From the NCBI GenBank assembly GCA_017551165.1, contig JAFZMO010000056.1:1-39125 (forward strand): a stretch of DNA of 39,125 nt, read 5' to 3'. Shown here piece after piece: positions 989-39,019 of this stretch. The notes below the pieces were generated by a model. The model made no database searches. It saw only the letters and a list, made by a program, of their open reading frames with translations, and was not told the DNA's origin. Position 1 is the first letter of the stretch. The number at the start of each line of letters is the position of its first letter. This stretch comes from Lachnospiraceae bacterium (GTDB lineage Bacteria > Bacillota > Clostridia > Lachnospirales > Lachnospiraceae). The translations under genes and the position numbers were made by a program.

Positions 989-2071
989 TTATTGGAAGAT
1001 CATCGGCAGGAACTCATGGATGCAGCGTCTCCAAACGGTCCAGTCGTGACCGCCCGGATAGGTGCTTCTGTGCATGTTGAGGCCCTTGCCCTCGAGGAAC
1101 TTGTCATCCGAATCGAAGGAGTTGAAATACTGGTCCTCGGTTCCCATCGCGCGGTAGAATACCTTGAAGCTCTCGTTGAACTTGTCGGCATCCTCCAGGA
1201 TCGCCAGGTGCGGCTCCGTCGCGTTGAAGAACGGCATGCGCAGGAATCCGCTGAAGAGTCCCGCATAACCGAACAGCTCCGGATGAGACAGCGTCGTGAT
1301 GCTGGTCTGGTAGCTGCCCATCGAAAGGCCTGCCATCGCGCGGTTCCACTTGTCGGTCAGCACGTTGTAACGGCCCTCAATGTAAGGGATGATGTCCTTG
1401 AGCAGAACGTCGAGGAACGCCATGCGCGCCATCGGAGACTTGTCCGCCTCCATGAGCTGCGTCATACCGCAGCACATAACGATGAGCATCTCCTTCATCT
1501 CGCCCTTGTCAAGAAGCTGGTCCGCGATGCGGCCGACGTGGCCCTGGAAGGTCCAGCCGATCTCATTTTCCCCGTAACCGTGCTGAAGATACAGCACCGG
1601 ATACTTCTTGTTCGGGTCATACTTCGGCGGCGTATACACAAGGCAGATCTCAAACTTGCCGGTCACCGAAGACTTTACATAGTGGCGGGTCACTGCGCCG
1701 TGAGTCACGTCCGTGAGACCGTCCCAGGTGATGTCCTCCACCGGAATGTCCATGAAGTTCATCGGGCGGCAGCAGCCGTAGCCGATGGGAAGATACGGAT
1801 TCAGAACATCCGCACCGTCGATCTTGAGGAAGAAATACTGGAATCCGCGACCGAGGTCGAACGTTCCCTCCCAGTAACCATCCTCCTTCTTTTCAAACGC
1901 CTGTGTCTTGCCGAACTGGTCAACCAAAACTTCTTTCGCGTTCGGTGCGATAATGCGAATCGTCACTCTGCCGTCCGGCAGGATCTCATACCCCTGATTG
2001 CCGTCACGGTTCGGCTCTCCGAAGATCGGATCGAACGACAGCGCAGTATCAAGCGGCCATTGTTTACTCAT
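989..2071 (-). CDS. CE1-like esterase (feruloyl/acetyl esterase type)
   Basis: A 360-residue alpha/beta-hydrolase. An N-terminal immunoglobulin-like (CBM48/E-set type) domain covers about residues 20-100 (DGRVTIRIIAPNAKEV, GYWEGTFDL). The esterase-D/CE1 domain follows from about 125, with TPPKYDPNKKYPVLYLQHG, the nucleophile Ser250 in GLSMGS and the catalytic His342 in GGHDW. This architecture is common in rumen feruloyl and xylan esterases that remove ester groups from hemicellulose. There is no signal peptide, so it probably acts in the cytoplasm on imported oligosaccharides. The ATG is preceded by AGGGAGGG. It follows the ABC pair by 145 bp on the same strand and may share its transcript. 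The exact substrate is not visible. Confidence 0.87.
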   Translation of the reverse strand: MSKQWPLDTALSFDPIFGEPNRDGNQGYEILPDGRVTIRIIAPNAKEVLVDQFGKTQAFEKKEDGYWEGTFDLGRGFQYFFLKIDGADVLNPYLPIGYGCCRPMNFMDIPVEDITWDGLTDVTHGAVTRHYVKSSVTGKFEICLVYTPPKYDPNKKYPVLYLQHGYGENEIGWTFQGHVGRIADQLLDKGEMKEMLIVMCCGMTQLMEADKSPMARMAFLDVLLKDIIPYIEGRYNVLTDKWNRAMAGLSMGSYQTSITTLSHPELFGYAGLFSGFLRMPFFNATEPHLAILEDADKFNESFKVFYRAMGTEDQYFNSFDSDDKFLEGKGLNMHRSTYPGGHDWTVWRRCIHEFLPMIFQ

Positions 2072-2216
2072 ATTTGCAAACCCTCCCTATACTCTTTTCT
2101 CCCCTTCTCGCGGGGTGCGGTACCTCGGTATCGCATTTATACCATTGTACTCCTTCTCGAGAGCTTGCGCTTGTGTTTTCTTGCGGTTTATGCGTCAAAT
2201 CGTGCGAAGTTTTGCA

Positions 2217-4010
2217 TCACTGTGCGGTCTGATAGCGTCCCGCCTGCACGCGCCACATCTCCGCGTAGCGGCCGCCCAATGCGAGCAGGCTCGCGTGGGT
2301 TCCCTCCTCGACGATGCGCCCGTTCTCCAGCATCAGGATGCGGTCGGCATCTCTTGTCGTGGAAAGCCGGTGCGAGATGTAGAACACGGTCTTGCCCTTC
2401 GCCGCACGCTTCATCGCGCGGTTCAGCTCGTACTCCGCGAGCGGGTCGAGTGCACTCGACGGCTCGTCCATGATCAGGATGTCGGCATCCTTGTAAAATG
2501 CTCTTGAAATCGCGATCTTCTGGCTCTCGCCGCCGGAGAAGTTCACGCCCTCGCGGTCGAACTCCGCAGTCACCTGCGTGTCCAGCCCGCGCGGCAGGCT
2601 CGCAAGCCGCTCTCCGAAGCCGGCCCGCTTCAGCGCATCCGCGATGCGGTCGCGGTCGGCGGACTCCGCCTCGCCGCTCATCACCACATTTTCCGCGAGT
2701 GACGCGCCGTACATCTGGTAGTCCTGGAAGACGACGCCGATGCGCCCGCGGTAGTCGTTCGGACGGTACTCGCGGATGTCACGGTCGTGGTAGGCGATCG
2801 TGCCCGCGGTCGGGTCGTAGAGGCGCATCAGAAGCTTGATCAGCGTCGTCTTGCCCGCGCCGTTGTAGCCGACGATGGCGATGTGCTCACCCTTGCGAAC
2901 CGTGAGCGAGATATCCTTGAGCGTGTCCTCCATATCCTCGCGGTAGCGGAAGCTCACGTGGTCGAGCACGATCTCCGCGTTGCCCTCGGGCACGTCGTCG
3001 CCCTCGTCGCGGCGGATCTTCGGCTCGTAATCGAGGAATTTCCGGATCTTGTCGATGTAGAGGCTGTTCTCCTGCGCCTGAGGCACGATGTCCGCGATGT
3101 CCGCCATACCTCTGCGGAGGCTGCCGGTGCGGTTGAACAGAACGACCGCATTGCTGTAGTCGATCGTGTGCAGCACCGCTGCCTGGAAGACGAGATACGT
3201 GATGTAGAGGCCGTCCATGATGAAGTCGCCGACGAGGTAAGCCTTCGTGTACCCCAGAAGCGACCGCTTCATTCCGACCTTCTCCTGGATCTCCGCGATC
3301 TCGTCGTCCGCCTCGGCGAACTCGCGCTCCAGGCGGTCGCCGACCTCAGGGTGCAGCCGCAGCTCCTTCGCGTAGTCGTTCAGGTAGAACACGCGGCTTA
3401 TGTAATTGCGCTTGCGCTCGAGCGGATTGACCGTGAGTCGTACACGGTAGTTGAGCTTGTTCAGCACACGCGACACGAGGAAGCGCAATACAAACGATGC
3501 AAGGACGAACAGCACGCCGGCTGCGTCCGTGAGCAGGTAGAAAACACCTGTCGTGAAAAGTATCGTGAAGCCCTGCACGATCATGTTGCACATGGCAAGG
3601 AACCGGTCGATGGAGGTCTCCGCCTCCGCAACCGCCAGCACGAAATCATTGTAGTAGTCGGGATCGTCGTAGCACGAGAGGTCGATCTCCGACGCCTTTT
3701 GGTACATTTTCTCCTTGAGCGCCTTGTAGAGCTTGGGCTTCGCGCGGTAGGACCATCCGTGGATGAACAGTCCGTCCGGTATGATCTGGAGCATGTTGAC
3801 GGTCAGGATGATGCCGATCACCAGCAATGCCTTCCAGAACGGCTCGTGATACTCCGCGCAGTGCAGCACGTAGCGGATGCCGAGCACGTGTTCGAGGAAA
3901 ATGATACCCTGATACCGGAATCCGTCGTACAGGAAATAGATCATGTACCCCGGACAGGTCTTGAAGCAAAGCCTCCACAGGAAGAGCTGGTTCTGAATTA
4001 TCCGCTTCAT
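2217..4010 (-). CDS. ABC exporter half-transporter B
   Basis: A 597-residue fused membrane domain and ATPase. Hydrophobic segments occur near residues 25-45, 58-78, 143-180 and 255-285. The nucleotide-binding domain has Walker A GYNGAGKTT (381-389), signature SGGES (492-496), Walker B ILIMDEPSSALD with the catalytic Glu, and an H-loop His547. Its start codon overlaps the stop of the upstream ABC gene (ATGA at 4007-4010), so the two are translationally coupled and probably form a heterodimer. An SD GGAGGTG lies just before the ATG. The substrate cannot be told; lipids, peptides and drugs are all handled by this fold. Neither half shows an N-terminal peptidase domain. Confidence 0.92.
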   Translation of the reverse strand: MKRIIQNQLFLWRLCFKTCPGYMIYFLYDGFRYQGIIFLEHVLGIRYVLHCAEYHEPFWKALLVIGIILTVNMLQIIPDGLFIHGWSYRAKPKLYKALKEKMYQKASEIDLSCYDDPDYYNDFVLAVAEAETSIDRFLAMCNMIVQGFTILFTTGVFYLLTDAAGVLFVLASFVLRFLVSRVLNKLNYRVRLTVNPLERKRNYISRVFYLNDYAKELRLHPEVGDRLEREFAEADDEIAEIQEKVGMKRSLLGYTKAYLVGDFIMDGLYITYLVFQAAVLHTIDYSNAVVLFNRTGSLRRGMADIADIVPQAQENSLYIDKIRKFLDYEPKIRRDEGDDVPEGNAEIVLDHVSFRYREDMEDTLKDISLTVRKGEHIAIVGYNGAGKTTLIKLLMRLYDPTAGTIAYHDRDIREYRPNDYRGRIGVVFQDYQMYGASLAENVVMSGEAESADRDRIADALKRAGFGERLASLPRGLDTQVTAEFDREGVNFSGGESQKIAISRAFYKDADILIMDEPSSALDPLAEYELNRAMKRAAKGKTVFYISHRLSTTRDADRILMLENGRIVEEGTHASLLALGGRYAEMWRVQAGRYQTAQ

Positions 4011-5881
4011 GCCAGAACACCTCCCTTCACCGTGGGAGCGACGCCCGCTGCGGGCTTGCTCTCATCCGCAAGCGCGAGGTAGTTCTTCGCCTGCTTGCGG
4101 TACATGTCGGCGTAGATGCCGTCCTGCTCCATCAGCATGGCGTGCGTGCCGTACTCCTTCACGCTGCCGTCCGACAGCAGGTACACCCAGTCCGCATTTT
4201 GCACGGACGAGAGGCGGTGCGAGATGAACACGAGCGTGTTGTCTTTGCACTCGCTGTAGATATTGTCGAAGATCTCGGCCTCGGCGATCGGGTCGAGCGC
4301 ACTCGACGGCTCGTCGAAGACCTTGAACGGGCACTGCTTGACGAACGCCCTGGCCACGACGATCTTCTGGAACTCGCCGCCCGAGAGCATCGCACCCTCG
4401 TCGTCGAACTCGTGGGTGAGCGTCGTGTCAAGCCCCTTGGGCAGCGACATGACCTTGTCGTACGCTCCCGCAAGCTTCAGCGCTTCCGTCACGCGGCTCT
4501 CCCGCTCCTCGGCGGGAATGGGCTCTCCCATGACGACGTTGTCCGTGACCGACATAGAAAACATGCGGTGATCCTGGAACGCCGTCGCGAAGAGCGCGCG
4601 GTACTTGCGGAGATTGTACTCCCGGATGTCGCGGCCGTTTAAGAGGATCTGTCCCTCCGTCGGGTCGTAGAACCGTAACAGCAGCTTGATCAGCGTGGTC
4701 TTGCCCGCGCCGTTGTGTCCCACGAGCGCGTAGGTCTTGCCGCCGCGGAACTCCATATTCAGGTGCGAGAGCACCTCCTTGTCCTTGTAGGAAAATGATA
4801 CGTCCCTAAACTCGATGCTCCTAATCTCCTTGCCGGGATCGAGTCCGTCGGAATCCTCCGGAATGCGCTCCTTGTACTCGAGGAACGTCCGCAGGTACTC
4901 CATAAAGAGTCCGTTCTTGAACAGCTCCGTGAGCGCCTCGGTAAATCCGATCAAAATCCATGTGGTCGACACCATCATGCTCGTGATGACCGAGAGCTCC
5001 GCGAGGCTCATCGACTCGCTCACAACCGTGCGGTACGCCCCGTAGATCAGCAGTCCCTCGAAGATGAAGGTGAATGTGAACATGACGTAGAACCAGTGCA
5101 GGATGGCCGCCTTCTTCGTGTACTTCTTCGTCACGTCGGCCACGCCCGTGATCGCCTCGCGGTACTGCCTCCGCATCAGGGAGAACACTCCGGTGAGGCG
5201 CATCTCCTTCGCGTACTCCGGCAGGTACATCACGCGGTTGATGTACGCGATGCGCCGGTTGTGCGGCGCCATGTCCTTATTTCTCGCATAGTCGAGACGG
5301 CTGATCGCTCGGTTGAACACGAAGTTGCCGATGATCGGGAAAATGATGAACAGCACCGAGATCTTGTCCACCTGATACATGAACAAAAACGCGCAGAAGC
5401 TCGCGATCGCGCCGAAGATTGTCTTGAACAGCGCCTCCGCCGTCGCGATCAGGCGCGTGTCGGCCTGCTCCATCGCCAGCGTGTAGCGGTCGTAGAAATC
5501 GCTGTCCTCAAAGCACGTGAGCTCCACGTTGCGCGATTTACGGAACAGGATGCGGTACAGCCCCTTGTTGACCACCGCCCCGCACACCGGCCGGATCTTT
5601 CCCCCGAAAAACTCCTCATAGAGCATCATGCAGCTGAATACGCACGCGACAACCGCGATGTACGTGAGGATTTTCCGAAATTCATCGCCGGCCTCCATGG
5701 CGTTGATGACGTGCCTCATGAAGAACGCGCTGTAGAACAGCCACTCAAAGTACCCGAGGAACCGCATCACGCCCTGGTGCATGACCAGCGACGGGCAGAT
5801 CCGCCACAGAAGCTTCAGGGCGTAGAAATTGTTCATCACGGCCCGCTTGCGGCTGATCTTGTTCGATTTCTTCTCACCCAT
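4007..5881 (-). CDS. ABC exporter half-transporter A
   Basis: A 624-residue ABC half-transporter, first gene of a coupled pair. The membrane domain fills about residues 20-330, and the ATPase has Walker A GHNGAGKTT near 388, signature LSGGEFQK and Walker B KVFDEPSSALD with an intact catalytic Glu. Both halves therefore look ATPase-competent, unlike the many heterodimeric exporters with one degenerate site. I place the start at 5881 (MGEKKSNK) rather than five codons upstream, because a G-rich SD (GGGGGGTG) sits 4-6 nt before this ATG and contains the alternative start region. A TTGACA-17-TACAAT promoter precedes it. Function beyond export-type transport is unknown. Confidence 0.91.
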   Translation of the reverse strand: MGEKKSNKISRKRAVMNNFYALKLLWRICPSLVMHQGVMRFLGYFEWLFYSAFFMRHVINAMEAGDEFRKILTYIAVVACVFSCMMLYEEFFGGKIRPVCGAVVNKGLYRILFRKSRNVELTCFEDSDFYDRYTLAMEQADTRLIATAEALFKTIFGAIASFCAFLFMYQVDKISVLFIIFPIIGNFVFNRAISRLDYARNKDMAPHNRRIAYINRVMYLPEYAKEMRLTGVFSLMRRQYREAITGVADVTKKYTKKAAILHWFYVMFTFTFIFEGLLIYGAYRTVVSESMSLAELSVITSMMVSTTWILIGFTEALTELFKNGLFMEYLRTFLEYKERIPEDSDGLDPGKEIRSIEFRDVSFSYKDKEVLSHLNMEFRGGKTYALVGHNGAGKTTLIKLLLRFYDPTEGQILLNGRDIREYNLRKYRALFATAFQDHRMFSMSVTDNVVMGEPIPAEERESRVTEALKLAGAYDKVMSLPKGLDTTLTHEFDDEGAMLSGGEFQKIVVARAFVKQCPFKVFDEPSSALDPIAEAEIFDNIYSECKDNTLVFISHRLSSVQNADWVYLLSDGSVKEYGTHAMLMEQDGIYADMYRKQAKNYLALADESKPAAGVAPTVKGGVLA

Positions 5882-5996: not shown

Positions 5997-6785
5997 TTAT
6001 GACTTGCGGCAGATGTACAACAGGTGGTTGGTCCCGCCCAGCAATTCTCTTTTTTCGGAAAATGCGAGATACCACTCGGCGAACCTCGCAAAATCCTCAT
6101 CGGCGATCGCGAAGTCCTCCCGGTCCTCCAGCGCCTCCACCATGCCGTCCACGCCGGTCGTGGCGAGCCACTGCACCGGACGGTCCGCGAAAAGCGCCTC
6201 GAACTCCTCGATGTCGTAGCCCGTGAACAGCTGCTCCTTGAAGTGGCGGATCCTGTAATCGTCCGTGAAGTTCTCCTCCTGCCCCGCAGCCCAGTTGCCC
6301 TGGAAATAGTTTGCGTACATGATGCCGAAGACCGATAGGAATGCGTACAGGATCACGCCGCCCGGCTTCGTCACGCGGATGGCCTCATCGATGGCACTGT
6401 CGACGTCCGCCTTGTCGTAAAGATGATACATCGGCCCGAAGCACAGCGTGACGTCGAACGTGCCGTCCGCGAACCTGCCAAGGTCGGTGGCGTCGCCCTG
6501 AAGCGCCTGCAGGTTCGCAAGCCCGCTGCCGTTGCGGCGCAGCACCTCGAGGTTGCTCTCAAGAAGCTCGACCGCGGTCATATCCATGCCCTCCTTTGCG
6601 AGCGCGACGGAATACCGGCCGGTGCCCGCGCCGATCTCGAGCACCTTGTCGCCCTTCGCCGCGTAGCGGTGGATGTAGTTCATCGTGACGGCGTACTCCA
6701 GCTGCCCGTGCCGGGTTCGCGCAAGCCGGCTGTCCTCGTTGCTCCAGTCATAAAACTCCTGCAAGATCTCCAAACGTGTCTTCAT
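5997..6785 (-). CDS. Class I SAM-dependent methyltransferase
   Basis: A 262-residue Rossmann-fold methyltransferase of the Methyltransf_11/25 type. Motif I is KVLEIGAGTGRYS near residues 46-58, followed by an acidic ribose-binding strand (MTAVELLESNLEVL), the motif LQGDATDL and the motif FDVTLCFGPMYHL. Substrate-binding segments are not diagnostic, so the methyl acceptor is unknown. The start is placed at 6785 (MKTRLEIL), since GGAGGGACGAAAC precedes that ATG, whereas an in-frame upstream Met has no SD and falls in the glyS terminator. No own promoter is evident. The gene begins 39 bp past the terminator stem of glyS on the same strand, so it may be fed by read-through. Confidence 0.88.
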   Translation of the reverse strand: MKTRLEILQEFYDWSNEDSRLARTRHGQLEYAVTMNYIHRYAAKGDKVLEIGAGTGRYSVALAKEGMDMTAVELLESNLEVLRRNGSGLANLQALQGDATDLGRFADGTFDVTLCFGPMYHLYDKADVDSAIDEAIRVTKPGGVILYAFLSVFGIMYANYFQGNWAAGQEENFTDDYRIRHFKEQLFTGYDIEEFEALFADRPVQWLATTGVDGMVEALEDREDFAIADEDFARFAEWYLAFSEKRELLGGTNHLLYICRKS

Positions 6786-6823
6786 GTTTCGTCCCTCCGT
6801 GTCCTCATTTTCCGAAAAATGGT

Positions 6824-9438: not shown

Positions 9439-11328
9439 TCATTCACCGTTCTTCCTCTTCCGGTACCACAACACGCCGCCCGTTGCTGCGACCGCGACTA
9501 AGCCTCCGATCGGGACTGCGTAGAGAAGCGGGTTGACGTTGTCCCCCTTGGCTGCCTTGTCGTCCTTAGCAACCGCAGGGATCTCCGTCGGCACCGGAGA
9601 CGGTGTTACCACCGGCGTCGGTGTCGGTGTCGGGGTGTCGGTCGGTGTCGGCGTATTGGTCGGCGTCGGCGTGTTTGTCGGCGTCGGGGTTGGTGTATTC
9701 GTAGGCGTCGGTGTATTGATCGGCGTCGGCGTGTTCGTCGGCGTCGGTGTCGGCGTCTTTGTGGGCTTCGGCGTGGGCGTCTTCGTCGGTTTCGGTGTCG
9801 GCGTATTCGTAGGTGTAGGAGTGTTCGTGGGTGTCGGCGTGTTCGTCGGTGTCGGCGTGTTCGTCGGTGTCGGCGTGCTCGTCGGCGTCGGCTCCTCCGT
9901 CACCTCGAGCGTCGGCGTATCTGCCGGTTCTCCCGTCACCTCGGGCGTCGGCGTGTCCGCTGGCTCTCCCGTCACCTCGGGCGTCGGCGTGTCCGCAGGC
10001 TCTCCCGTCACTTCCGGCGTCGGCGTGTCCGTCGGTGTCGGCTCCTCGGTCGGCGTCGGCGACGGATTGTTGATCTCCTGCGCCTTCGACCGCGACACAT
10101 GCTCCATCATATTGTTGCCGGTGTCTGTGCCGACCTTCGTGCGGAACAGGCCGAACTCCGCGGCGCTGTACTCATAGTCGTCGGAGACGTAGAACCAGCA
10201 CCACTGCTGCGACTCGTGCTTCAGGTATGCCGCCTTCGCAACATCGAGCGCCGTCTTACCGCCGAACTCCGAGAGCGGCACGCGCATGTTCAGGCGGAGC
10301 TTGTTCTTCTCATAGAGGTGAAAATACGTCTTCGGAACATCCCATGTCCCGTACTTTTTTGCCGAATCCGATTGATAGTCCGCATCCATCGAGTGCTCGA
10401 TCACTTCCTGCACGGCCGCATTCAGGATCATGTGGCCGCCGTGGCCGTACTCACCCTTGATGTCGTGCGTCACGATGACGAGCGGCTTGAAGCGGCGCAC
10501 CACCTCGCACACGCTCTTTGTAAGCTTCTTGATATCGTACTGCGTCTTGGCCTTGTCGAGGGTCTTCGAATAATAGTCGTAATAGTTCATGCAGATCGGG
10601 TAGTTGCGGATGCCGCTCGCCCACAGGCCGTCCAGCTTCTCATGCTCGCGCACATGCTCCGTGGACCAGAACTCGCACATGTATGCGACCTGCACCTTGA
10701 GCTTCTCCTGCCCGCCGTACTGCGCAAGCACGCCGCCGAAGAAGAGGATCTCATCGTCCGCGTGCGTGGAAAAAACAAGGATGTCCGCCTCCTTGAACGC
10801 CGGCTTCCACACCTGCACGTCCGCGGGCAATGTCCCTTCGGAAAATGCTTCGATCTCGCTCACGTAGACGTCCTTCTCGATCCGGATCTCCACGCTCGTC
10901 GCAGGCTCCTTGAGCGCGACGTAGTCATGCAAAAATCCGTTCTCGCCGTGCTTCTCCGTCTGCTCGTTGTAGTGCAGCGTGTACGGGGAGACCGTCGAGC
11001 CCCAGCGGATGTAGACGCCGTACATCGGCTTCTCCGATGTTACGGTGAGAACCTCACCCGTCTTGTATTTCTCGCGCGTTTTGTTGGAGTTGTCGCGCAG
11101 CTTGCTCTGCTTGCTGCCGCCTTTATTCTTCACGGTGATGTCGAGCGAGACGGCTGTCTGCCCGTCTCTCCTCGAGCTGCTCGAGGTGGTCGTACGGTCC
11201 GCGGCCGCTCCTCCGTGCAGTGCGATCAGCATCGCAAGGGAAACCAGCAGTGTCACACGCAACGCTGTCGCGCCCGGCGTGTTCCGCCGTGTCCTGTCAT
11301 TTCTTCGTTGTCCACCAAAAATCTTCAT
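9439..11328 (-). CDS. Surface-anchored PIG-L family deacetylase with Pro/Thr repeat stalk
   Basis: A 629-residue protein. An Arg-rich N-terminus leads into a signal segment (about residues 22-43). A beta-rich, discoidin-like region follows at 58-165. The PIG-L/LmbE domain is at about 183-400, with the metal motif STHADDE (188-193 region) and a second motif HGGH (296-299). Residues 421-582 form a long Thr/Pro stalk, followed by a transmembrane helix (about 603-620) and a short basic tail (WYRKRKNGE). PIG-L enzymes remove N-acetyl groups from GlcNAc-containing substrates; here the domain would sit outside the cell on a stalk. The usual HPDDE is HADDE. Start ATG at 11328 has AGAGGGG upstream. 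It follows recO by 35 bp. The substrate is unknown. Confidence 0.86.
9583..10068 (-). repeat. Coding minisatellite of the PIG-L stalk
   Basis: This tandem repeat encodes PIG-L residues 421-582. It starts with three near-identical 36-bp units (9907-10014) encoding [12 protein letters not shown], then continues with 18- and 24-bp units of [14 protein letters not shown] with Lys variants (TPTPKPTK). The repeated DNA would be prone to slippage, so stalk length may vary between strains. Confidence 0.9.
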
Positions 11329-11363: not shown

Positions 11364-12173
11364 CTAAAACACTGTCAGATCCTGAAATCCCCGGAGCATC
11401 TCCGCGCTCCGGAACGTGTGGTCCACGTACTCGGCGTACCAGCTCGCAGCGATCGCCCGGAGTTCCTCGAGCACCTCGGGGCTCACGGAAAATGAGAACA
11501 GCCTCGTCGGCTGTGTCGATGCGATCACGCGCAGCGCGTACCAGGACGAATCGTCGAGGTTGTAGTAGCCCGAGGCCACCGCCTGCGTTCGCAGCTCGTA
11601 GGCCTTGCGACCCTCCTCGTCGAACAGCTCGCCGGCACACTTTCGGCACAGGCAGCCGCCCGAGGGGACGTGGAACACAAACGGCCCCTGCGTGTCGCGG
11701 CACCGCACGCACTCGTTGACCTGCGGCCCTTCGCCTCGCACATACGCGATCTTCATCTCGTAGACCGCGCGCACGAGCTTCGCCTCCGGCTCGCCCTTCG
11801 CAAGCGCGCGCAGAGCGGCGTACAGAAGCTGCAGCGTCTCGCGCTCATCGAGGTTTTCCTCGGTCGCGAACTCCGCGAGTTCACAGAAATAGAGCCCGTA
11901 GCAGGTCTTGTCAAAATCCCCGCGGAGCTCCGTAAAATAGTTGTTCACTTCGGCGCGGATCATCGTGTACGAATTGCGACCCTCAACGACCGTGAACGCT
12001 CCCGTCACAAACGGCTGCGTCGCCGCCACAAGCGTCGACGTCGGACGCTGCGCTCCCCTCGCAAATGCGGAGATGCGCCCGCGCTCCTGCGTCAATATGG
12101 ACAGTCTTCTGTCGTGTTCGCCGATCGGCATCGAGGAAAGAACGATGCCGTGCAATATCGGATGATCGGTCAT
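11364..12173 (-). CDS. recO: DNA repair protein RecO
   Basis: A 269-residue RecO. The N-terminal OB-fold is recognisable in HGIVLSSMPIGEHDRRLSIL and GRISAFARGAQRP, and a Cys4 zinc site lies near residues 150-180 (CVRCRD ... CLCRKC). RecO loads RecA onto SSB-coated single-stranded DNA with RecR in gap repair. Length fits the family (about 240-270). The start ATG at 12173 is preceded by GGAGGAAAG. It follows era by 65 bp; era-recO adjacency is the usual order in Firmicutes, which supports the call. Confidence 0.95.
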   Translation of the reverse strand: MTDHPILHGIVLSSMPIGEHDRRLSILTQERGRISAFARGAQRPTSTLVAATQPFVTGAFTVVEGRNSYTMIRAEVNNYFTELRGDFDKTCYGLYFCELAEFATEENLDERETLQLLYAALRALAKGEPEAKLVRAVYEMKIAYVRGEGPQVNECVRCRDTQGPFVFHVPSGGCLCRKCAGELFDEEGRKAYELRTQAVASGYYNLDDSSWYALRVIASTQPTRLFSFSVSPEVLEELRAIAASWYAEYVDHTFRSAEMLRGFQDLTVF

Positions 12174-18031: not shown

Positions 18032-18074
18032 CTTTCTAACCTCTTGTTCCTAAAAATGTTGCCCGGGATCCGAG

Positions 18075-21357: not shown

Positions 21358-21386
21358 ATTTTATTCCCAAATATGGAAAATGTCAA
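21358..21386 (-). promoter_or_regulatory. Sigma-A promoter of the dapF series
   Basis: The minus strand has TTGACA (21381-21386), a 17-bp spacer, then TAAAAT (21358-21363). The -35 box runs straight into TTTTCC, so it contains the recurrent word CATTTTCC. An alternating CG tract (CGCGCGCGC, around 21392) lies just upstream. Confidence 0.82.
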
Positions 21387-21427
21387 GTCAACGCGCGCGC
21401 GGGACTATATATAGAATAGCCGCAGTA

Positions 21428-21456
21428 TTGACATTTTCCGGCGATAATGCTATGCT
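21428..21456 (+). promoter_or_regulatory. Sigma-A promoter of the lipoprotein gene at 21520
   Basis: TTGACA (21428-21433), a 17-bp spacer and TATGCT (21451-21456). As in the divergent dapF promoter, the -35 box continues as TTTTCC. The predicted start near 21463 gives a leader of about 57 nt with a strong AAGGAGGT site. Confidence 0.8.
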
Positions 21457-26145: not shown

Positions 26146-26247
26146 CGAAACAGGGGCCTCTCCGGCCGCGTTCCGGCGAGTCTTTTGACGTGTCTTTTGG
26201 CATTGACGGACCGGAGCCTGCGGAGCATTTTCCGACAGGTCTTTCGC

Positions 26248-28129: not shown

Positions 28130-28155
28130 TCCGCAATTGAATTCTTCGGAAAATG

Positions 28156-28256: not shown

Positions 28257-30827
28257 TTACTTCCTGCCCTTCTCGCGCTTTCTTGTGCGCATGTGCGACG
28301 AGCGGTCACGGCGGCTCCGCGGCTTCCTGCCTTCGTCGCAGGTCTCCTCGGTCTTCAACACGCGTCCCGCGTTTAGGTAGATCACACGCTTCGCCATGCG
28401 CCGCATGACGGCCTCATCGTGCGTGATGAAGAGATACGTCAGGTTGAACCGGTCGTGGAAGTCCGCAAGCAGCGCCAGCACCTGCTCCTGCACGGTCGCA
28501 TCGAGCGCGGAAACCGGCTCGTCGAGGATCAGGATATCCGGCTTGCCGAGGATCGCCATACCGATGGCGACGCGCTGCCGCTGTCCGCCGGACAGCTCCG
28601 TGATCTTGCGCCCCGCATACTCCTCCGTGAGTCCGACGGCATTGAGCATCGCAAGCGCTTCCTTCGCACGCCCTGCGTTGGCCTCGCGGTACTGCGTGTT
28701 GATCTCCTGCCGGCGCTTTGCCTTCTGCTCCGCTGTGAGCGTGGAGTCGCTCTTCATTTTCCGAAGAGCCTCCTTGCGCTCCTTGATCAACCGGCTTCGG
28801 ATCGGCTCCTCGAGAAGCCACTGCACCGTCTTCGCGCGGTTCAGGCTTCCGTACGGGTCCTGAAACACCATGCCGATGCGGGCCTTCGTCTCGATCGTGC
28901 CGGCCTGCCGCGGGATCAGTCCCGCCAGACAGCGCGCCAGCGTCGTCTTGCCGCTGCCGCTTCGGCCGATGATGCCGAGCACCTCGCCCTCGCGAAGTTC
29001 CATCTCAAAATTCTCAAGGACTTTATTCTCATAATCGAGCGGATTGCGCCCGCGTCTCTTGCCGTAATACACGTGGAGATGCCGCACCCGAAGGATCTCG
29101 GGAGCGTCCTCCGCGCAGTGCATGAGGTCGCGGAAATCCGTTCCGGAGAGCGACTGCAACAGCTGTCTCGTTACCGCTGTCTTCGGCGCCTCAAAGATCT
29201 CTTCGACCGTGCCCTCCTCCGCGATGCATCCGCCGTCCATCACCATCACGCGACGGCAGATCCGTCTCACCACGGCGAGCTCATGCGAGATAAACAAGAC
29301 CGCCATGCCGTGCTTCTTCTGCAATTCGTCAAGCAATGCAAGGATCCCGTCCCGCGTCTCCGCATCGAGCGCGGTCGTCGGCTCGTCGAGGATGAGAAGC
29401 CTCGGCCGCAGCAGCATCGCGATCGCGATCATCACTCTCTGTCTCTGTCCGCCGGAGAGCTCCTTCGGAATGCTCCGCAGGATCCGCTCCGTATCCGTCA
29501 GCTCGACCTCGAGGAGCGCCTCGGTGAGACGCTTTGTCTCTTCCTCCTTGGACAGGCGAACCTCGTTGTGAGTGAGCATTTCCCGCATCTGACGCCCGAT
29601 CGGCATCGTCGGGTTTAAGGACGTCATCGGCTCCTGGAACACCATCGCCATCACGTCGCCGCGCAGAAGCGCAAGCTCCTTCTTCGAGCAGGCAAGCAGG
29701 TTCCGAAGCCCCTTGTCCGTCCGGATCCAAATCTCGCCGGTCACGCCGGCCGTGTCGGGCAGCAGGTCCATCACTGACAGCGCCGTCATGCTCTTGCCGC
29801 TGCCGGACTCGCCCACGATACCGAGCCGCTCGCCGGCATGCAACACGAAATTCACGTCCTTCACAACCGCCTGCAGCGACCCGTCCGCCCGCTCAAAGCC
29901 GACGGCGAGGTTGCGCACGAGAAGAACCGGAGCACCCTCGCTGTCCGCGGGGGACTCGCACTTCCCGTAGCCCGCCTCGGCCAGCTTGCGGCTGATGCGC
30001 GCGCGGATCCGCACGGGATTGCCGGTGTCGCCCTGGTTGCCCGAGTACGCTTCACTTAAGAGCGAGACGCCGAGCACCGCGAGCACGAGGATCATGCCGG
30101 GGAACAGCACCGTCCACGGCGCGCTCCGCAGGTACGACTGGCCCTCGGAGAGCATGCGGCCGATGCTCGCCTTCGGCGGCTGAACGCCGAGACCCAAGTA
30201 GCTCATGCCCGACTCCGCGAGCACAGCGTTGTTGAAGCCGACCGCCATCGTCACGAGAAGCGTGGCGCGGATGTTCGGCAGGATGTGTACAAACAAAATA
30301 CGCGCGTTGGAAACACCGAGAAGCTTCGCGTTGACGACGTAGTCCGACTGCAGCTGCGTGCGGACGTCGCTTCGCACCACGCGGGCGATACTCGGGATGA
30401 AGAGGATTCCGAGCGCGATGACAACATTTTTCTCGGAAGGCCCCAAGACGCCGACGAACACGAGCGCAAGCAAAATGCTCGGGAACGCGAGGAGGCAGTC
30501 GTTGATGCGCATGATGATCGCGTCAAATGTCCCCCCGATGTAGCCGGCGAGCGCTCCGACCAGCGTTCCGAAAATGCCGCCGATCGCCACCGTCATCGCG
30601 CCGATCAGCACGGTGGTCAGCGCCCCGTGCGCCACGCGCGTGTAGACGTCACGGCCGTAGTGGTCCGTGCCGAAGAGATGCTTGAGGGAAGGGGCAAGAT
30701 TTTTCGAGGCGACATCCATGTCGTCCGCCCCGTAAGGCGACAGAAACAAGCCCCCCGCGATCAGCAAGACCGTCAGGAGGAGAAGCGCGCAACCGCAAAC
30801 GAAATTGAACGAGCGCTTCCGTTTCAT
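28257..30827 (-). CDS. Fused permease and two ATPases of a peptide/nickel-type ABC importer
   Basis: An 856-residue fusion of three normally separate subunits. Residues 1-290 are a DppC/OppC-type permease (LFGTDHYGRDVYTRV; the EAA-type loop around LLGVSNARILFVHILPN). Residues about 305-560 are a DppD-like ATPase (GESGSGKS, LSGGQRQR, LLILDEPTTALD). Residues about 580-830 are a DppF-like ATPase (GRSGSGKT, LSGGQRQR, ILILDEPVSALD). All catalytic motifs look intact. DppD-type iron-sulphur Cys motifs at the end of ATPase 1 are absent. The C-terminus is very basic (SRRDRSSHMRTRKREKGRK). The start at 30827 follows AAAGGG; a Met seven codons earlier lacks an SD. It lies 69 bp after the partner permease gene. 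Confidence 0.93.
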   Translation of the reverse strand: MKRKRSFNFVCGCALLLLTVLLIAGGLFLSPYGADDMDVASKNLAPSLKHLFGTDHYGRDVYTRVAHGALTTVLIGAMTVAIGGIFGTLVGALAGYIGGTFDAIIMRINDCLLAFPSILLALVFVGVLGPSEKNVVIALGILFIPSIARVVRSDVRTQLQSDYVVNAKLLGVSNARILFVHILPNIRATLLVTMAVGFNNAVLAESGMSYLGLGVQPPKASIGRMLSEGQSYLRSAPWTVLFPGMILVLAVLGVSLLSEAYSGNQGDTGNPVRIRARISRKLAEAGYGKCESPADSEGAPVLLVRNLAVGFERADGSLQAVVKDVNFVLHAGERLGIVGESGSGKSMTALSVMDLLPDTAGVTGEIWIRTDKGLRNLLACSKKELALLRGDVMAMVFQEPMTSLNPTMPIGRQMREMLTHNEVRLSKEEETKRLTEALLEVELTDTERILRSIPKELSGGQRQRVMIAIAMLLRPRLLILDEPTTALDAETRDGILALLDELQKKHGMAVLFISHELAVVRRICRRVMVMDGGCIAEEGTVEEIFEAPKTAVTRQLLQSLSGTDFRDLMHCAEDAPEILRVRHLHVYYGKRRGRNPLDYENKVLENFEMELREGEVLGIIGRSGSGKTTLARCLAGLIPRQAGTIETKARIGMVFQDPYGSLNRAKTVQWLLEEPIRSRLIKERKEALRKMKSDSTLTAEQKAKRRQEINTQYREANAGRAKEALAMLNAVGLTEEYAGRKITELSGGQRQRVAIGMAILGKPDILILDEPVSALDATVQEQVLALLADFHDRFNLTYLFITHDEAVMRRMAKRVIYLNAGRVLKTEETCDEGRKPRSRRDRSSHMRTRKREKGRK

Positions 30828-30896
30828 GCCAAACCCTTTCCGCAACATTTTCCGAATGATATGTCAGAAAATGCACTTTCTTTCACTTCAAAATCT

Positions 30897-32483: not shown

Positions 32484-34010
32484 TTATTTGAAGTAGACGG
32501 AAGCCATGTCCTGAACGTACACCGGATAGAAGGTGTAGCCGGCGAGCTTCTTGTTGACAGCAACCATCAGGGACGGGCTCTGAATGAACACGGAAGCCGC
32601 GTCGTTCGTGAGGCAGGCCTGAAGCTGGTGGTAGAGATCAACCTTCGCGGAAGTGTCAACGGTGGCCTGAGCCTCCTTGTAGAGGCGGTCGAAGTCATCG
32701 CTCTTGTAGTTGATGAAGTTCTTCGACGATCCGCCGACATAGTACTTCAAAATGTCGCTCGGAGCGAGCTGCGAGTCGAGACCGATGATGGTCGCGTCGC
32801 AGTCATGGCCCTTGTAGACGTCGGAGAGCCAGCTTGCCCACTCGATCTGCTCGATCTTCATGGTGATGCCGACCTTCTTGAGCTGATTCACGAGAACCTC
32901 GGCCGTCTGCACGTGGTACGTGTAGTTCGACGGAACCTTCACGGTGAATGTGAAACCGTCGGCGTAGCCGGCTTCCGCGAGCAGTTGCTTCGCCTTGGCC
33001 TCGTCGTGAGCGTACGTCTTGGCGAGCTCGCCGTCGTAGTAGAGGCCGAACGTCGAGTAAACGCCGCTGCCGATGGCCGTGCCGTATCCGCCGTTGAGCA
33101 TCTGCAGGATCTCGTTCTTGTCAACCGCGTAGTTCACTGCCTGGCGCACGCGAACGTCGTCGAACGGCTTCACTGCATTGTTCAGGAACAGGCCCTGCAC
33201 AAGGCTCATGGAGCCAACCTCGATGTTGAACTGATCCTTGAGCTGCTCCGCCTGGTCGACGGTCAGGTACGGGAAAATGTCGATATTTCCCGCCTGCAGC
33301 TTCAAAAATGCCGCATCGGTGCTCTCCGAGATGGAAAATGTCACCTTCGCCAGGTGAGCCTTCTCCCCGTGGTAATCCTCAAAACGCTCCATGACAAGGC
33401 TGTCCATGGGCTTGTACGACACGAACTTGAACGGGCCCGTGCCGACCGGCGACTTCGCCTGATCCGCATAGTTCTTCGGAACGATGTTGCAGGTGAAATA
33501 CCCGATCAATTCCGTGTTGGGGCTCGAGAGCGTGACCGTGATCACGTCCTTCGCTCCGTCCTTCGAAGCGGAAATGTCGGAAATAACAGAAAACGCAGCG
33601 ACAACCTGAACTTCCGGATCCGGATTTTCCAAGCGTCCTGCGCATCGATTCAACGAATATACCACATCATCCGCCGTAACGGTCTCTCCGTTGTGGAACT
33701 TCACACCGTCGCGCAACACGAAGGTGTATTTCGTTCCGTCCGCCGAGATCTCGTAGCTCTCCGCTACTGCGGGTACCAGTTTGCCATCCTTGTCGGGCTT
33801 AACAAGGCCCTCAAAAATGTTGTACAAGACTTCTCTGGTTCCTGCCGCTACCGCTTTGTGGGGGTCAAGACTGTCCAAATCCTGTGTTATTCCAACAACA
33901 ACCGCTCCACCTTTCAGATTTTCCTCCGGATCCTTCGTACCGCCTTTGCATCCGCAAAGTGCAGTCGCACTGATCAACAGAAGAAGAAAACAAGCAAGAA
34001 ATTTCTTCAT
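32484..34010 (-). CDS. Peptide/nickel-type ABC substrate-binding lipoprotein
   Basis: A 508-residue family 5 solute-binding protein (DppA/OppA-like). The signal peptide ends in the lipobox ALCGC with the lipid-modified Cys at 21. Typical blocks are LDSLDPHKAVAAGTREVLYNIFEGLVKPDKDG, GTKYTFVLRDGVKFHNGETVTADDVVYSLNR and GTGPFKFVSYKPMDSL. It delivers the ligand to the permease encoded downstream. Peptides are the most common ligands of this family, but nickel and sugars are known. The SD AAAGGAG lies 5-6 nt before the ATG, and a TTGCAT-17-TATGAT promoter precedes it. It is separated from the permease gene by the repeat island. Confidence 0.94.
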   Translation of the reverse strand: MKKFLACFLLLLISATALCGCKGGTKDPEENLKGGAVVVGITQDLDSLDPHKAVAAGTREVLYNIFEGLVKPDKDGKLVPAVAESYEISADGTKYTFVLRDGVKFHNGETVTADDVVYSLNRCAGRLENPDPEVQVVAAFSVISDISASKDGAKDVITVTLSSPNTELIGYFTCNIVPKNYADQAKSPVGTGPFKFVSYKPMDSLVMERFEDYHGEKAHLAKVTFSISESTDAAFLKLQAGNIDIFPYLTVDQAEQLKDQFNIEVGSMSLVQGLFLNNAVKPFDDVRVRQAVNYAVDKNEILQMLNGGYGTAIGSGVYSTFGLYYDGELAKTYAHDEAKAKQLLAEAGYADGFTFTVKVPSNYTYHVQTAEVLVNQLKKVGITMKIEQIEWASWLSDVYKGHDCDATIIGLDSQLAPSDILKYYVGGSSKNFINYKSDDFDRLYKEAQATVDTSAKVDLYHQLQACLTNDAASVFIQSPSLMVAVNKKLAGYTFYPVYVQDMASVYFK

Positions 34011-34061: not shown

Positions 34062-34090
34062 ATCATACACTTCGAGCCCGGAAAATGCAA
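34062..34090 (-). promoter_or_regulatory. Sigma-A promoter of the importer operon
   Basis: Minus strand TTGCAT (34085-34090), 17-bp spacer, TATGAT (34062-34067). The -35 box continues as TTTCCGG, so a CATTTTCC word again overlaps it. Confidence 0.75.
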
Positions 34091-36138: not shown

Positions 36139-37017
36139 ATGAGTAAGGTTTTCAGAAAAACGGTCCTGGCGGGCGCGCTGCTGTGTGTGATGCTGTGCGT
36201 CTTCGGCTGCGCCAAGGACACGGGCCCGGTCCCGGCCACACCGACCGTCACGCCGACGCCGGAAGGCTGGTTTGAGATCCCGCCGGACATCGATCCGGAG
36301 ATCCTGCAGTTTCTTCTGCCGTCCGGGAATCAACTGACACCGGGCGTCACGCCGGCAGGCTCGTCGAACAATGCAACTCCGACGTCCGCACTGCCGAACC
36401 GGATCCGGGTGAACAGCCGCGGCTACTCGGCAGAGACGATCCGTGACTATTTCAGCGAGGTCGCGCTCAACACGGAATACGGTAGCAACGACAATTGCGT
36501 CCACAAATGGAACGAGCCGCTCACAGTGTACGTCGACGGCCGGCCGACAGCGCAGGACCGGATCGTTTTGGATGACATTTTCCGAACGATGAACGGCGTG
36601 CGCGGATTCCCCGGCATCAGCGAGACAACGTCGGAGCGCGACGCGAATATCGTGATCCATTTTGCGGACGATGCCGAGTATACCCGGATCACGCCCGAGA
36701 CCATCACGGACTCCTCGGACGGGTTTGCAACCTGCTGGTGGTCGGGCTATTACATCTTCGAGGCGGTGATCGGGATCCGCACGAGCATGTCGCAAAACGA
36801 GCGCAACTCGGTCATCTGGGAGGAGCTCGTGCAGGCGACCGGCCTGCAGAACGACTCGTACACCTACCCCGACAGCCTGTTCTACCAGGGCTACAACGAG
36901 GTGCAGGGCCCGAACGAGCTGGACTGGATCCTGTTTGAAATTCTGTACCACCCGGAGATCAAGGCGGGTATGACGGAGGCGGAGTGCAGCGCCGTAATCA
37001 AGTCAGTGTTGGAGTGA
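36139..37017 (+). CDS. DUF2927-like lipoprotein
   Basis: A 292-residue lipoprotein with lipobox VFGC (Cys24) and a short Thr/Pro linker. From about residue 95 it resembles DUF2927: YSAETIRDYFSEVALNTEYG, then TVYVDG, then DANIVIHFAD, and VIWEELVQATGLQNDSYTYPDSLFYQG. DUF2927 looks like a degenerate metallopeptidase-type fold; here the expected HExxH position reads EELVQ, so peptidase activity is unlikely. The SD GGGGGAA precedes the ATG at 36139. It is the middle gene of the surface operon. Role unknown. Confidence 0.72.
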   Translation: MSKVFRKTVLAGALLCVMLCVFGCAKDTGPVPATPTVTPTPEGWFEIPPDIDPEILQFLLPSGNQLTPGVTPAGSSNNATPTSALPNRIRVNSRGYSAETIRDYFSEVALNTEYGSNDNCVHKWNEPLTVYVDGRPTAQDRIVLDDIFRTMNGVRGFPGISETTSERDANIVIHFADDAEYTRITPETITDSSDGFATCWWSGYYIFEAVIGIRTSMSQNERNSVIWEELVQATGLQNDSYTYPDSLFYQGYNEVQGPNELDWILFEILYHPEIKAGMTEAECSAVIKSVLE

Positions 37018-37035: not shown

Positions 37036-37758
37036 ATGAATATCGAAAACAAGCAGACCGCGCTGGACGACGACGCGGCAATATATCAGCATCTCGAATC
37101 GGAATCGAGCGCCAAGAGCGAGAGGGAGAAGCTCTCCGAGCTTTCGTTCAAGGGGAAAATGCGCTACCTGTGGGACTACTACGCACTCAAAGCGTTCCTT
37201 GTGCTTCTGTTCGGCGGTCTCATCGTCGCGATCATCTACAACTTCTTCAAGCCGCGGCCGGACACGATCGCGGAGATCACGGTGATCGACAGCCCCTGGA
37301 GCTCAACGGCGTTTGAGAACTACTCCGAGTATCTTCTGAAGGAGCTTGGCCTGGACACCGTCGGCAGCGAGATCCCAATCTCCGGCGGATACCATTCCGG
37401 CAGCGTCGAGGACAGCACCACGGTCGCCACGCGCCTCTACGCGAGCGATATCGACATCATGATCGCGCCGAAAGATGTCATTCTCTCCTATGCGGAAAAC
37501 GGTACCTTCTACCCGCTCGACATCCTTCCCGACTACCTTGCGACGGCAGTCTCGAAGCTCGATCTCATCGGCACCTCACTCGGACCGGATGACGGCATGC
37601 ACTACTACGCCTTCGGCATCACAGGCACCGCGCTCGGAAAGTTCGTCGACAGCGAGGGCGCCGCAACCTACGAGATGTACGTGGCGATCTGCCGCACCAG
37701 CCGCCAGGAGCGCCGCGACAAGCTGTTCGGGATCCTCAACATCATGATCGGTCAGTAA
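37036..37758 (+). CDS. Bitopic membrane protein of unknown function
   Basis: A 240-residue protein with a cytoplasmic, charged N-terminus (1-48), one transmembrane helix (about 51-70, in LWDYYALKAFLVLLFGGLIVAIIYNFF) and an outside domain (75-240). The outside part contains ASDIDIMIAPKDVILSYAENGTFYPLDILPDYL, reminiscent of the hinge regions of solute-binding folds, but I do not recognise a named family. The SD GAAAGGAA lies before the ATG, 18 bp after the DUF2927 gene, so it belongs to the same operon. The 160-bp gap to asd holds A/T-rich sequence, a direct repeat of TTGCAAA and the asd promoter, with no clear terminator. Confidence 0.75.
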   Translation: MNIENKQTALDDDAAIYQHLESESSAKSEREKLSELSFKGKMRYLWDYYALKAFLVLLFGGLIVAIIYNFFKPRPDTIAEITVIDSPWSSTAFENYSEYLLKELGLDTVGSEIPISGGYHSGSVEDSTTVATRLYASDIDIMIAPKDVILSYAENGTFYPLDILPDYLATAVSKLDLIGTSLGPDDGMHYYAFGITGTALGKFVDSEGAATYEMYVAICRTSRQERRDKLFGILNIMIGQ

Positions 37759-37795
37759 CGGTCTCAGATTTTTTGCAAATTTTTGAAAAAAGTAC

Positions 37796-37824: not shown

Positions 37825-37918
37825 AGCCGCATATCCGCGGACAAATGTCCGTGACAGAAAAACAAATTAAGCAGGACGGGCAGGAAATGAACAGCTCCGT
37901 CCGGTTCGGAGGATTCCC

Positions 37919-39019
37919 ATGAAAGCTATTGTTCCCGAGAAAAAATTGCGCGTCGGTATCATCGGTGCAACCGGTATGGTCGGACAGCGCTTCATCTCTC
38001 TTTTGGAAAACCACCCCTGGTTTGACGTCGTAACTCTTGCCGCATCCCCCAGAAGCGCGGGCAAGCGCTATGAGGACGCAGTGGGTGATCGTTGGAAAAT
38101 GCCCACCCCCATGCCGGAGGCAGTCAAGGACCTCATTGTCTACGACGCAAGCGAGGTGGAGAAGGTTGCCGCAACGTGCGACTTCGTATTTTCCGCAGTT
38201 GACCTGAAGAAGGACGAAATCCGCGCGATCGAGGAGGCTTACGCCAAGACCGAGACGCCCGTTGTGTCCAACAACAGCGCGCACCGCTGGACGCCCGACG
38301 TTCCGATGGTTGTGCCGGAACTAAACCCCGAGCACTACGATGTCATCGAGTTCCAGAAGAAGCGCCTCGGCACGAAGCGCGGCTTCATCACCTGCAAGCC
38401 GAACTGCTCCATCCAGAGCTACACGCCTATGCTCCATGCGCTCAAGGAGTTTGAGCCCACGGTTGTTGTTGCAACGACCTACCAGGCAATCTCCGGCGCC
38501 GGCAAGACGTTCAAGGATTGGCCGGAAATGATCGACAACGTCATTCCGTACATCGGCGGCGAGGAGGAGAAGAGCGAGCAGGAGCCTCTCCGCATCTGGG
38601 GCCACATTGAGAACGGCGAGATCGTCAAGGCAAATTCCCCGATCATCACGACGCAGTGCATCCGCGTTCCGGTTTCGGACGGTCACACCGCAGCCGTGTT
38701 CGTAAACTTCAAGAAGAAGCCCACGAAGGAGCAGATCCTCGAGGCTTGGAAGAACTTCAAGGGACTTCCTCAGGATCTCGAGCTTCCGAGCGCACCGAAG
38801 CAGTTCATCACCTACTTCGAGGAGGACAACCGTCCGCAGTGCAAGCTTGACCGCGAGATCGAGGGCGGTATGGGCGTTTGCGCCGGCCGTCTCCGCGAGG
38901 ATGCCGTTTACGACTGGAAGTTCGTCGGTCTGTCGCACAACACCAAGCGCGGTGCAGCAGGCGGCGCGATCCTCTCCGCAGAGCTTCTCGTTGCGAAGGG
39001 ATATATTGCGGCGAAGTAA
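37919..39019 (+). CDS. asd: Aspartate-semialdehyde dehydrogenase, archaeal/fungal-type
   Basis: A 366-residue enzyme that reduces aspartyl phosphate to aspartate semialdehyde, the branch point to lysine/diaminopimelate, threonine and methionine. NADP-binding is shown by VGIIGATGMVGQRF (12-25). The nucleophilic Cys lies in CKPNCSIQ (about 161) and the acid/base His in RVPVSDGHTA (about 254). The length and the C-terminal DREIEGGMGVCAGRLRED block mark the archaeal/yeast branch rather than the shorter E. coli-like enzyme; this branch is also known in several Clostridia. The SD GGAGGA is 6 nt before the ATG. It has its own promoter. It shares a pathway with dapF, 17 kb away in this window. Confidence 0.95.
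   Translation: MKAIVPEKKLRVGIIGATGMVGQRFISLLENHPWFDVVTLAASPRSAGKRYEDAVGDRWKMPTPMPEAVKDLIVYDASEVEKVAATCDFVFSAVDLKKDEIRAIEEAYAKTETPVVSNNSAHRWTPDVPMVVPELNPEHYDVIEFQKKRLGTKRGFITCKPNCSIQSYTPMLHALKEFEPTVVVATTYQAISGAGKTFKDWPEMIDNVIPYIGGEEEKSEQEPLRIWGHIENGEIVKANSPIITTQCIRVPVSDGHTAAVFVNFKKKPTKEQILEAWKNFKGLPQDLELPSAPKQFITYFEEDNRPQCKLDREIEGGMGVCAGRLREDAVYDWKFVGLSHNTKRGAAGGAILSAELLVAKGYIAAK

Follow-up and report, generated by a model that had tools for sequence, protein, structure and literature searches.

A recurrent DNA word in a lineage of Lachnospiraceae as a candidate DNA-uptake sequence

The 39,125-nucleotide stretch of DNA analysed here (the window) carries a series of mostly minus-strand genes, among them recO, pepF and several transporter genes, through which a short DNA word is scattered. 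This octamer, GGAAAATG, occurs in 25 exact copies on both strands (17 plus, 8 minus; Table 1), against a mean of 0.98 and a maximum of 5 in 100 dinucleotide shuffles. Among the 8-mers of the window it ranks first (z 21, order-2 model), and a fuller motif, CGGAAAATG, accounts for 13 of the 25 copies. An earlier note on the same DNA had reported the word as over-represented, with about one copy expected and thirteen copies of the CGGAAAATG type, and we confirm both observations. Of the 23 copies that it listed, 22 starts were right; two copies were overlooked and one start, given as 4791, should be 4790. It also placed seven copies between genes, where our gene calls, made with a home-made script, leave 6 outside genes.

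Table 1. Exact copies of GGAAAATG in the window, with their strand and surroundings.
Position	Strand	Fuller motif	Setting
1564..1571	-		within esterase-domain gene 989-2071(-), same strand
2687..2694	-	CGGAAAATG	within ABC transporter gene 2217-4010(-), same strand
3896..3903	+		within gene 2217-4010(-), opposite strand; overlooked earlier
4790..4797	+		within ABC transporter gene 4007-5881(-), opposite strand
5338..5345	+		within gene 4007-5881(-), opposite strand; G before it; overlooked earlier
6057..6064	+	CGGAAAATG	within methyltransferase-domain gene 5997-6836(-), opposite strand
6806..6813	-	CGGAAAATG	within gene 5997-6836(-), same strand
10840..10847	+	CGGAAAATG	within PIG-L domain gene 9439-11256(-), opposite strand
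11487..11494	+	CGGAAAATG	within recO 11364-12173(-), opposite strand
12967..12974	+		within era-like GTPase/KH gene 12239-13162(-), opposite strand
15677..15684	+		within M16C peptidase gene 13238-16195(-), opposite strand
17519..17526	+		within cohesin-domain gene 16223-17959(-), opposite strand
18638..18645	+	CGGAAAATG	within dockerin-domain gene 18075-20378(-), opposite strand
21375..21382	+		intergenic, divergent genes on either side
21432..21439	-	CGGAAAATG	intergenic, inverted relative to copy 57 bases earlier
26226..26233	-	CGGAAAATG	intergenic, divergent
28148..28155	+	CGGAAAATG	intergenic, convergent, 18 bases past pepF
28755..28762	-	CGGAAAATG	within transporter gene 28257-30827(-), same strand
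30846..30853	-	CGGAAAATG	outside called gene; a longer open reading frame, 28257-30848, begins at its ATG
33272..33279	+		within solute-binding protein gene 32484-34010(-), opposite strand
33333..33340	+		within gene 32484-34010(-), opposite strand
34080..34087	+	CGGAAAATG	intergenic, divergent
36576..36583	-	CGGAAAATG	within DUF2927 gene 36139-37017(+), opposite strand
37154..37161	+		within gene 37036-37758(+), same strand
38094..38101	+		within semialdehyde dehydrogenase gene 37919-39019(+), same strand

The window belongs to a metagenome-assembled genome (MAG) of 2.54 Mb in 160 contigs with 7.7% contamination, here called G000. Its PepF protein is 76-90% identical to proteins at nine loci (L001-L008, L019) of MAGs labelled Lachnospiraceae or Lachnoclostridium, a rumen being named for three of the matching MAGs and a goat omasum for one. 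The window's bacterium thus probably came from a rumen. In the NCBI taxonomy, the family Lachnospiraceae belongs to the Clostridia, within Bacillota.

The word is enriched throughout this genome. Across the whole of G000, CGGAAAATG occurs 382 + 426 = 808 times and the reversed word 2 + 2 = 4 times. Our main sample comprises 316.7 kb of G000 (the window and 20 further stretches; 91% coding), including a masked locus, L098 (1,754 N), that was excluded from later counts. In this sample there are 167 copies of GGAAAATG against 10.1 expected from an order-2 model, and in 395 kb of G000 there are 212 against 14.9. Extrapolation from the sampled DNA gives about 1,350 copies of GGAAAATG per genome.

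We find that the excess follows the DNA word and not the codons that it overlaps. Among the 167 sampled copies, 123 (74%) lie within genes, 41 between genes, and 3 on boundaries. Synonymous codon shuffling within genes (100 shuffles) yields a mean of 9.7 and a maximum of 18 copies, against the 123 observed, while intergenic DNA holds 41 copies against 2.67 expected. Enrichment is therefore comparable in the two compartments (13x coding, 15x intergenic), with densities of 1.5-2.0 per kb between genes and 0.43 per kb within them (123 in 287.7 kb). Codon-shuffled controls, which the earlier note had proposed as a check, do not reproduce the excess, and five permutations of its letters are not enriched: GTAAAAGG, GGTAAAAG, AAGGAATG, GAAGAATG, and AAAAGGTG occur 1, 4, 5, 8, and 3 times against 12.8, 5.1, 4.3, 11.2, and 7.4 expected. 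Together, codon shuffling and the permuted controls reject a neutral or codon-level cause.

The motif tolerates mismatches in a graded manner. Over 444.8 kb, the 9-mer is enriched 48x, 5.8x, and 1.5x over base composition at 0, 1, and 2 mismatches, against 0.35x, 0.68x, and 0.92x for the reversed word. Related words that had been seen to recur are variants of this graded motif (TATTTTCC, 60 against 5.6; CATTTTGC, 44 against 9.1 in the 316.7 kb sample). In the same sample, C precedes GGAAAATG in 58% of copies and a weak T-rich stretch lies upstream. The base immediately on either side carries 0.31 and 0.22 bit; all other flank positions, out to 40 bases, stay below 0.15 bit. Because the flanks are nearly uninformative and similarity does not go beyond the word, we reject a dispersed or mobile repeat of the repetitive extragenic palindrome (REP) or miniature inverted-repeat transposable element (MITE) kind. 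The runner-up 8-mer of the window, ACGCCGAC, was likewise rejected as a second dispersed word, since 17 of its 35 copies form one cluster at 9.6-10.06 kb. Here (9600-10060), the PIG-L domain gene contains 17 clustered copies of GTCGGCGT, perhaps a repetitive linker; GTCGGCGT is also enriched in a related genome, G015.

Copies are indifferent to strand. Within genes, 123 lie on the coding strand and 113 on the opposite strand (P 0.56) in the sampled DNA of G000 and two relatives, G009 and G011. Relative to the majority gene strand, which is only a proxy for replication direction, the split is 156/140 (P 0.38; stretches of these genomes with clear gene polarity). G011 alone leans to the coding strand (28 same, 14 opposite). 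Position along the gene is flat, with quintiles of 40, 41, 48, 42, and 43 (P 0.92; 214 copies in complete genes of the three genomes). In the 316.7 kb sample, the codon phases hold 42, 12, and 4 copies on the coding strand and 37, 26, and 2 on the opposite strand; all six combinations are present, unevenly, in line with the earlier remark that copies occupy different codon phases. Spacing is near random (mean 1.7 kb, coefficient of variation (CV) 0.91), and neighbouring copies tend slightly to face opposite ways (87/147, P 0.03); a strand table drawn up alongside the spacing omits L098-L100. A transcription terminator or start signal is rejected, as neither orientation nor gene-internal position fits; the transcription signal suggested earlier is thus disfavoured, with 123 of 167 copies within genes and both orientations present.

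The two inverted copies at 21375-21439 of the window, which lie between divergent genes, form arms of 12 bases when extended (GGAAAATGTCAA / TTGACATTTTCC) and could also be an operator. Elsewhere in G000, L082 near 2772 and L084 near 3978 hold perfect palindromes of two near-abutting words (CGGAAAATGATCATTTTCCG, CATTTTCCGCGGAAAATG), located at or near gene borders.

Enrichment of the word is a lineage trait. Relatives were sampled rather than read whole. Across 22 genomes of the genus, counts of CGGAAAATG range from 63 to 1,060, the richest member being G009, and 18 of the 22 have at least 10x as many copies as of the reversed control (exceptions: G006, G015, G017, and G021). Among 397 genomes of the family, two of them in the genus, we identified by eye eight more with a ratio of at least 10, all outside the genus (G118, G421, G253, G134, G337, G403, G339, and G182). 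In the rest of the family the ratio, again by eye, is commonly about 3.

The word also exists in lineage-specific spellings. A PilB tree (27 rows, some long-branch warnings) defines clade A (G000, G009, G011), clade B1 (G001, G008, G016, G004), and clade B2 (G006, G017). It joins A and B1 (97/96) and places B2, together with G015, outside them. Motif refinement by expectation-maximization (EM) was usable for G000 only, and other spellings were compared by word tables. Against codon shuffles, coding copies of GGAAAATG and of the alternative spelling GGCAAATG number 236/20.9 (11.3x) and 50/10.5 (4.8x) in clade A, 82/25.1 (3.3x) and 101/14.2 (7.1x) in clade B1, and 27/20.7 (1.3x) and 20/13.2 (1.5x) in clade B2. 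The corresponding values are 19/5.6 and 22/4.1 in G007, 11/6.9 and 16/6.2 in G015, and 26/19.8 and 11/9.0 in three other genera. All four CGNAAAAT forms are enriched in clade A (4.6-9.1x), and mainly CGGCAAAT in clade B1 (5.6x; 4.9x in clade A too). Whole-genome counts of CGGAAAATG:GGCAAATG are 808:199 in G000 and 1060:220 in G009, against 272:424 in G001, 421:584 in G008, and 453:622 in G007.

The spellings, which have a common core of CGG-x-AAAT-G, thus shift in preference between A and B1, with no outright swap. These dialects follow phylogeny, and G006 and G017 have neither word. For clade B2, loss of the word is likelier than absence from the start, because the word-bearing G012 (253 against 17) branches outside A, B1, and B2, a placement that is itself weak (83/82). 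A search for a replacement in the lineage without the main word gave nothing convincing. The best candidate in G006 (L101-L107, L187), GCAAAAGC, has 59 copies against 15.2 expected and is possibly a different word. In G004 (L141-L146, L175), several G+C-rich words that overlap one another, ACCCCGTCC and CCCCTAAC among them, occur in 11-18 copies each and are probably one repeat.

Individual sites turn over while copy numbers hold. Stretches of G000 were aligned with 19 sets of relatives; of the 135 aligned copies, 50 are exactly retained, against 28.4 expected from all 8-mers in these alignments; the associated P of 1.6e-4 is optimistic, as the sets share G000 sites. In the close set, 44 of 105 G000 copies are retained, and the relatives hold 102 copies, 44 of them in common. 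The sites therefore move between species.

We find that the word is scarce in two prophages. Of the 22 genomes, only G005 has phage portal genes (Pfam portal model). Its prophages (C8, 55-104.2 kb; C9, 1-24.4 kb), whose borders were judged by eye on the basis of word density and G+C, contain 4 copies in 73.6 kb against 33.7 expected (P 1.5e-10), while the host DNA has 76 in 166.2 kb. Composition predicts 5.0 copies in the prophages and 4.8 in the host DNA, so that the host is enriched 16-fold and the prophages, which have lower G+C, show no excess. With the prophages confined more strictly, to the span between the outermost phage genes in the scan, their 46.4 kb still hold 4 copies; the G005 host rate would give 21.2 (P 6e-6), and five stretches taken from other contigs, with 38 copies in their 100 kb, would give 17.6 (P 1.1e-4). 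Each of the ten prophage proteins that were scanned has a PHROGs match, and the families include portal, terminase, tape measure, helicase, DNA polymerase, tail, and integrase. Parity between coding and non-coding DNA, presence on both strands and in several codon phases, codon shuffling, and prophage scarcity together make it well supported that selection (or drive) acts on the DNA word itself, as the earlier note had proposed, and not on protein or RNA.

The genus also encodes the components of a putative DNA-uptake apparatus. A type IV pilus operon, examined in 15 genomes, comprises PilB, PilT, PilC, two major-type pilins, a prepilin peptidase, PilM, and several minor pilins. PilT scores above the cut-off of its NCBIfam model, whereas the labels of PilB and PilC rest on T2SSE/MshEN and T2SSF, and those of the peptidase and PilM on Pfam; calling a further operon gene PilN/O-like is a guess. 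The best NCBIfam match of operon gene 11 is GspH, below the cut-off (32 of 80 bits), and we label it GspH-like. Its protein falls into three sequence groups that correspond to clades A, B1, and B2, the last including G015. FimT, a minor pilin of other bacteria, reportedly binds DNA (PMC8897410).

PilB, ComEC, and DprA are each found in 20 of the 22 genus genomes, DprA having no match in G009 or G015, and ComEC and PilB none in G020 or G021. A short HHH_3 protein, which we infer to be ComEA, is present in all 22, and in 19 of the 20 genomes with ComEC it lies on the ComEC contig, within 5 kb. At least five prepilin motifs occur in 16 of the 22 genomes, including all 13 of good quality; G000, G010, G013, G020, and G021 have none and G003 has one, and all six are at most 91.4% complete. 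G000 holds PilB, ComEC, DprA, and the ComEA-like protein. ComEC is in two pieces at G015:C63 and G016:C57 (with stops in G016), which is either real decay or assembly error.

We slightly favour reading GGAAAATG as a DNA-uptake sequence, with CGGAAAATG as its fuller form and CGNAAAAT as the range of its graded tolerance. Its density, strand indifference, tree-following spellings, absence from a sublineage, scarcity in prophages, and the accompanying set of pilus, ComEA, ComEC, and DprA genes all match uptake sequences. A minor pilin of a type IV competence pilus would prefer the word, and word-rich DNA of kin would be drawn in by PilT-driven retraction. ComEA and then ComEC would pass the DNA on, and DprA would aid its recombination. 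Biased uptake and recombination would maintain and spread the word, would let the preferred spelling drift between lineages (GGAAAATG toward GGCAAATG), and would leave recently arrived phage DNA without it. The more specific proposal is more tentative, its chances falling slightly short of even: sequence-specific natural transformation in Bacillota, by a gut genus of Lachnospiraceae, with a nine-base word in at least two spellings, one lineage without it, and a reader in the form of a minor pilin that arose independently of Neisseria ComP and of the Pasteurellaceae receptor.

Several observations weigh against an uptake sequence. DNA around five of nine places with conjugation genes (in six genomes) was examined, and the picture is mixed: two contigs are undepleted, with 12 copies in 23.3 kb (G011:C31) and 7 in 19.9 kb (G012:C75), while G008:C11 (1 in 13.7 kb), G015:C54 (4 in 39 kb), and G019:C79 (0 in 3.3 kb), from low-copy genomes or a short contig, are uninformative. 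There is no gene-end bias and no preferred orientation within genes, unlike in known uptake sequences, and tight inverted pairs (at most 20 bases) show no clear excess (2 against 0.56 at random, seen in 11% of trials). No pilins were found in G000, where the contig ends 0.7 kb past PilB. G253, outside the genus, has 340 copies of CGGAAAATG against 5 reversed and no PilB at E 1e-90, suggesting either that the enrichment arose independently there or that the pilus was lost. Word and PilB show no association among 40 hand-picked family genomes, PilB being present in 5 of 12 chosen for higher counts and 14 of 28 others. The word-richest genome, G009, has no DprA match, and G020 (728 against 3; 82% complete, 380 contigs) has neither ComEC nor PilB. 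G006 and G017, without either word, yet keep the pilus, ComEC, DprA, and the ComEA-like protein. The one protein resembling the ComP receptor family falls short of that family's threshold (E 0.0055, 18 of 27.3 bits). The ratio of GGCAAATG to reversed control (about 2.5-4.8 in A, 2.8-4.6 in B1) does not separate the clades; thus, the spelling shift rests on the relative counts of the two words and on the codon-shuffle table. Finally, monoderm uptake is described in PMC12153270 as having no sequence specificity. These misfits are not fatal, because a word may persist after its reader is gone and MAGs miss part of the genome, although together they hold our confidence to little more than an even balance.

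The uptake reading also fits best among those offered in the earlier note, where a Chi-like signal had been suggested too. Such a word would make an AddAB/RecBCD-type nuclease stop degrading and start recombination, and hence be rich in host DNA and scarce in phage. Density, prophage scarcity, lineage-specific spelling, and non-palindromic form would all fit; the benefit would act alike in coding and non-coding DNA, and with no pilus required, G253 would pose no problem. Known Chi words are, however, biased to the leading strand. The orientation found here is unbiased both by majority gene strand and within genes, with G011 alone favouring the coding strand, and several one-mismatch variants are enriched too. 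We therefore consider Chi unlikely, if the foremost of the alternatives. Somewhat behind it, and also unlikely, is a site for an abundant nucleoid or chromosome-organising protein or a global regulator, at roughly one per two kilobases. Graded mismatch tolerance, the A-tract core, and the higher density between genes speak for such a protein, but enrichment relative to local expectation is alike in coding and intergenic DNA, the spacing is near random, and loss in a sublineage together with a shifted spelling would require the protein to change.

A modification or defence word, that is, a methylation site marking self DNA in the manner of HIP1 or as a target of BREX or restriction-modification, would explain prophage scarcity and the differences in spelling between clades. 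We regard it as improbable: GGAAAATG is no palindrome, unlike the cyanobacterial word, its near-variants are enriched too, and restriction targets are usually avoided, not enriched, in genomes. A neutral origin, through mutation bias, a preference for certain codon pairs, or a family of dispersed repeats, is very improbable. The A-rich core and the denser copies in A+T-richer intergenic DNA could be read that way, but the five permutations show no enrichment, codon shuffling abolishes the excess, the reversed word is nearly absent, the flanks are uninformative, and the prophages, despite their lower G+C, show no excess.

If the word does act as an uptake sequence, it would be an independent case in uncultured gut Bacillota, and would show that self-tagged DNA exchange evolves repeatedly. 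It would also indicate natural transformation among gut bacteria that are known from MAGs, and would offer tagged DNA as a possible means of transforming them. Two preferred spellings and a lineage without the word within one genus make the spread and change of such words directly testable. A preference of the pilin for the matching spelling among CGGAAAATG, CGGCAAATG, and the reversed word would support a pilin receptor. A literature search with three forms of the word returned no report of it. A search of titles and the beginnings of abstracts, with subscription literature mostly outside its reach, found no uptake word in Bacillota, and the literature joining "uptake sequence" and Lachnospiraceae concerns, by title, Neisseria and resistance-gene screening.

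Two further features of the window lie apart from the word. At 16223-20444, two adjoining genes, one with a cohesin and the other with a dockerin domain, each also encode a cadherin-like beta sandwich, which suggests a small pair of the cellulosome kind. At 28257-30848, two ATPase domains of the sort found in peptide or nickel transporters are joined to a permease domain in a single open reading frame.

According to PMC5031613, the families with described uptake words are two, Pasteurellaceae and Neisseriaceae. The DNA uptake sequence (DUS) of Neisseriaceae has eight dialects and a ComP receptor, with 2,245-5,918 copies among the counts given in the portion of PMC3630211 used here. Like DUS, the present word is short and non-palindromic, has hundreds of copies on both strands in coding and intergenic DNA, and shows tree-following spellings with a common core, some relatives without the word, and type IV pilus genes. 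Unlike DUS, it has an unrelated sequence, a Bacillota host, fewer copies (about 1,350 of GGAAAATG), and no clear excess of inverted pairs, and we infer its receptor and uptake.

The uptake signal sequence (USS) of Pasteurellaceae, also treated in PMC12616744 (consulted in part), has 47-70% of its copies in coding DNA that makes up 84-89% of five genomes, favours one orientation within genes, and is biased to gene ends, according to the sections of PMC2346458 consulted. As far as those sections go, the present word similarly exceeds its share outside genes (74% of copies in 91% coding DNA) and has no general orientation bias along the genome. It differs in its unrelated sequence and in having no gene-end bias or favoured in-gene orientation. 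With Chi signals, it has in common a short non-palindromic form and over-representation in host DNA; its lack of orientation bias sets it apart from their leading-strand bias. The HIP1-type word of cyanobacteria shows a similarly strong genome-wide over-representation of a short word, but is a palindrome (PMC1939737), which GGAAAATG is not.

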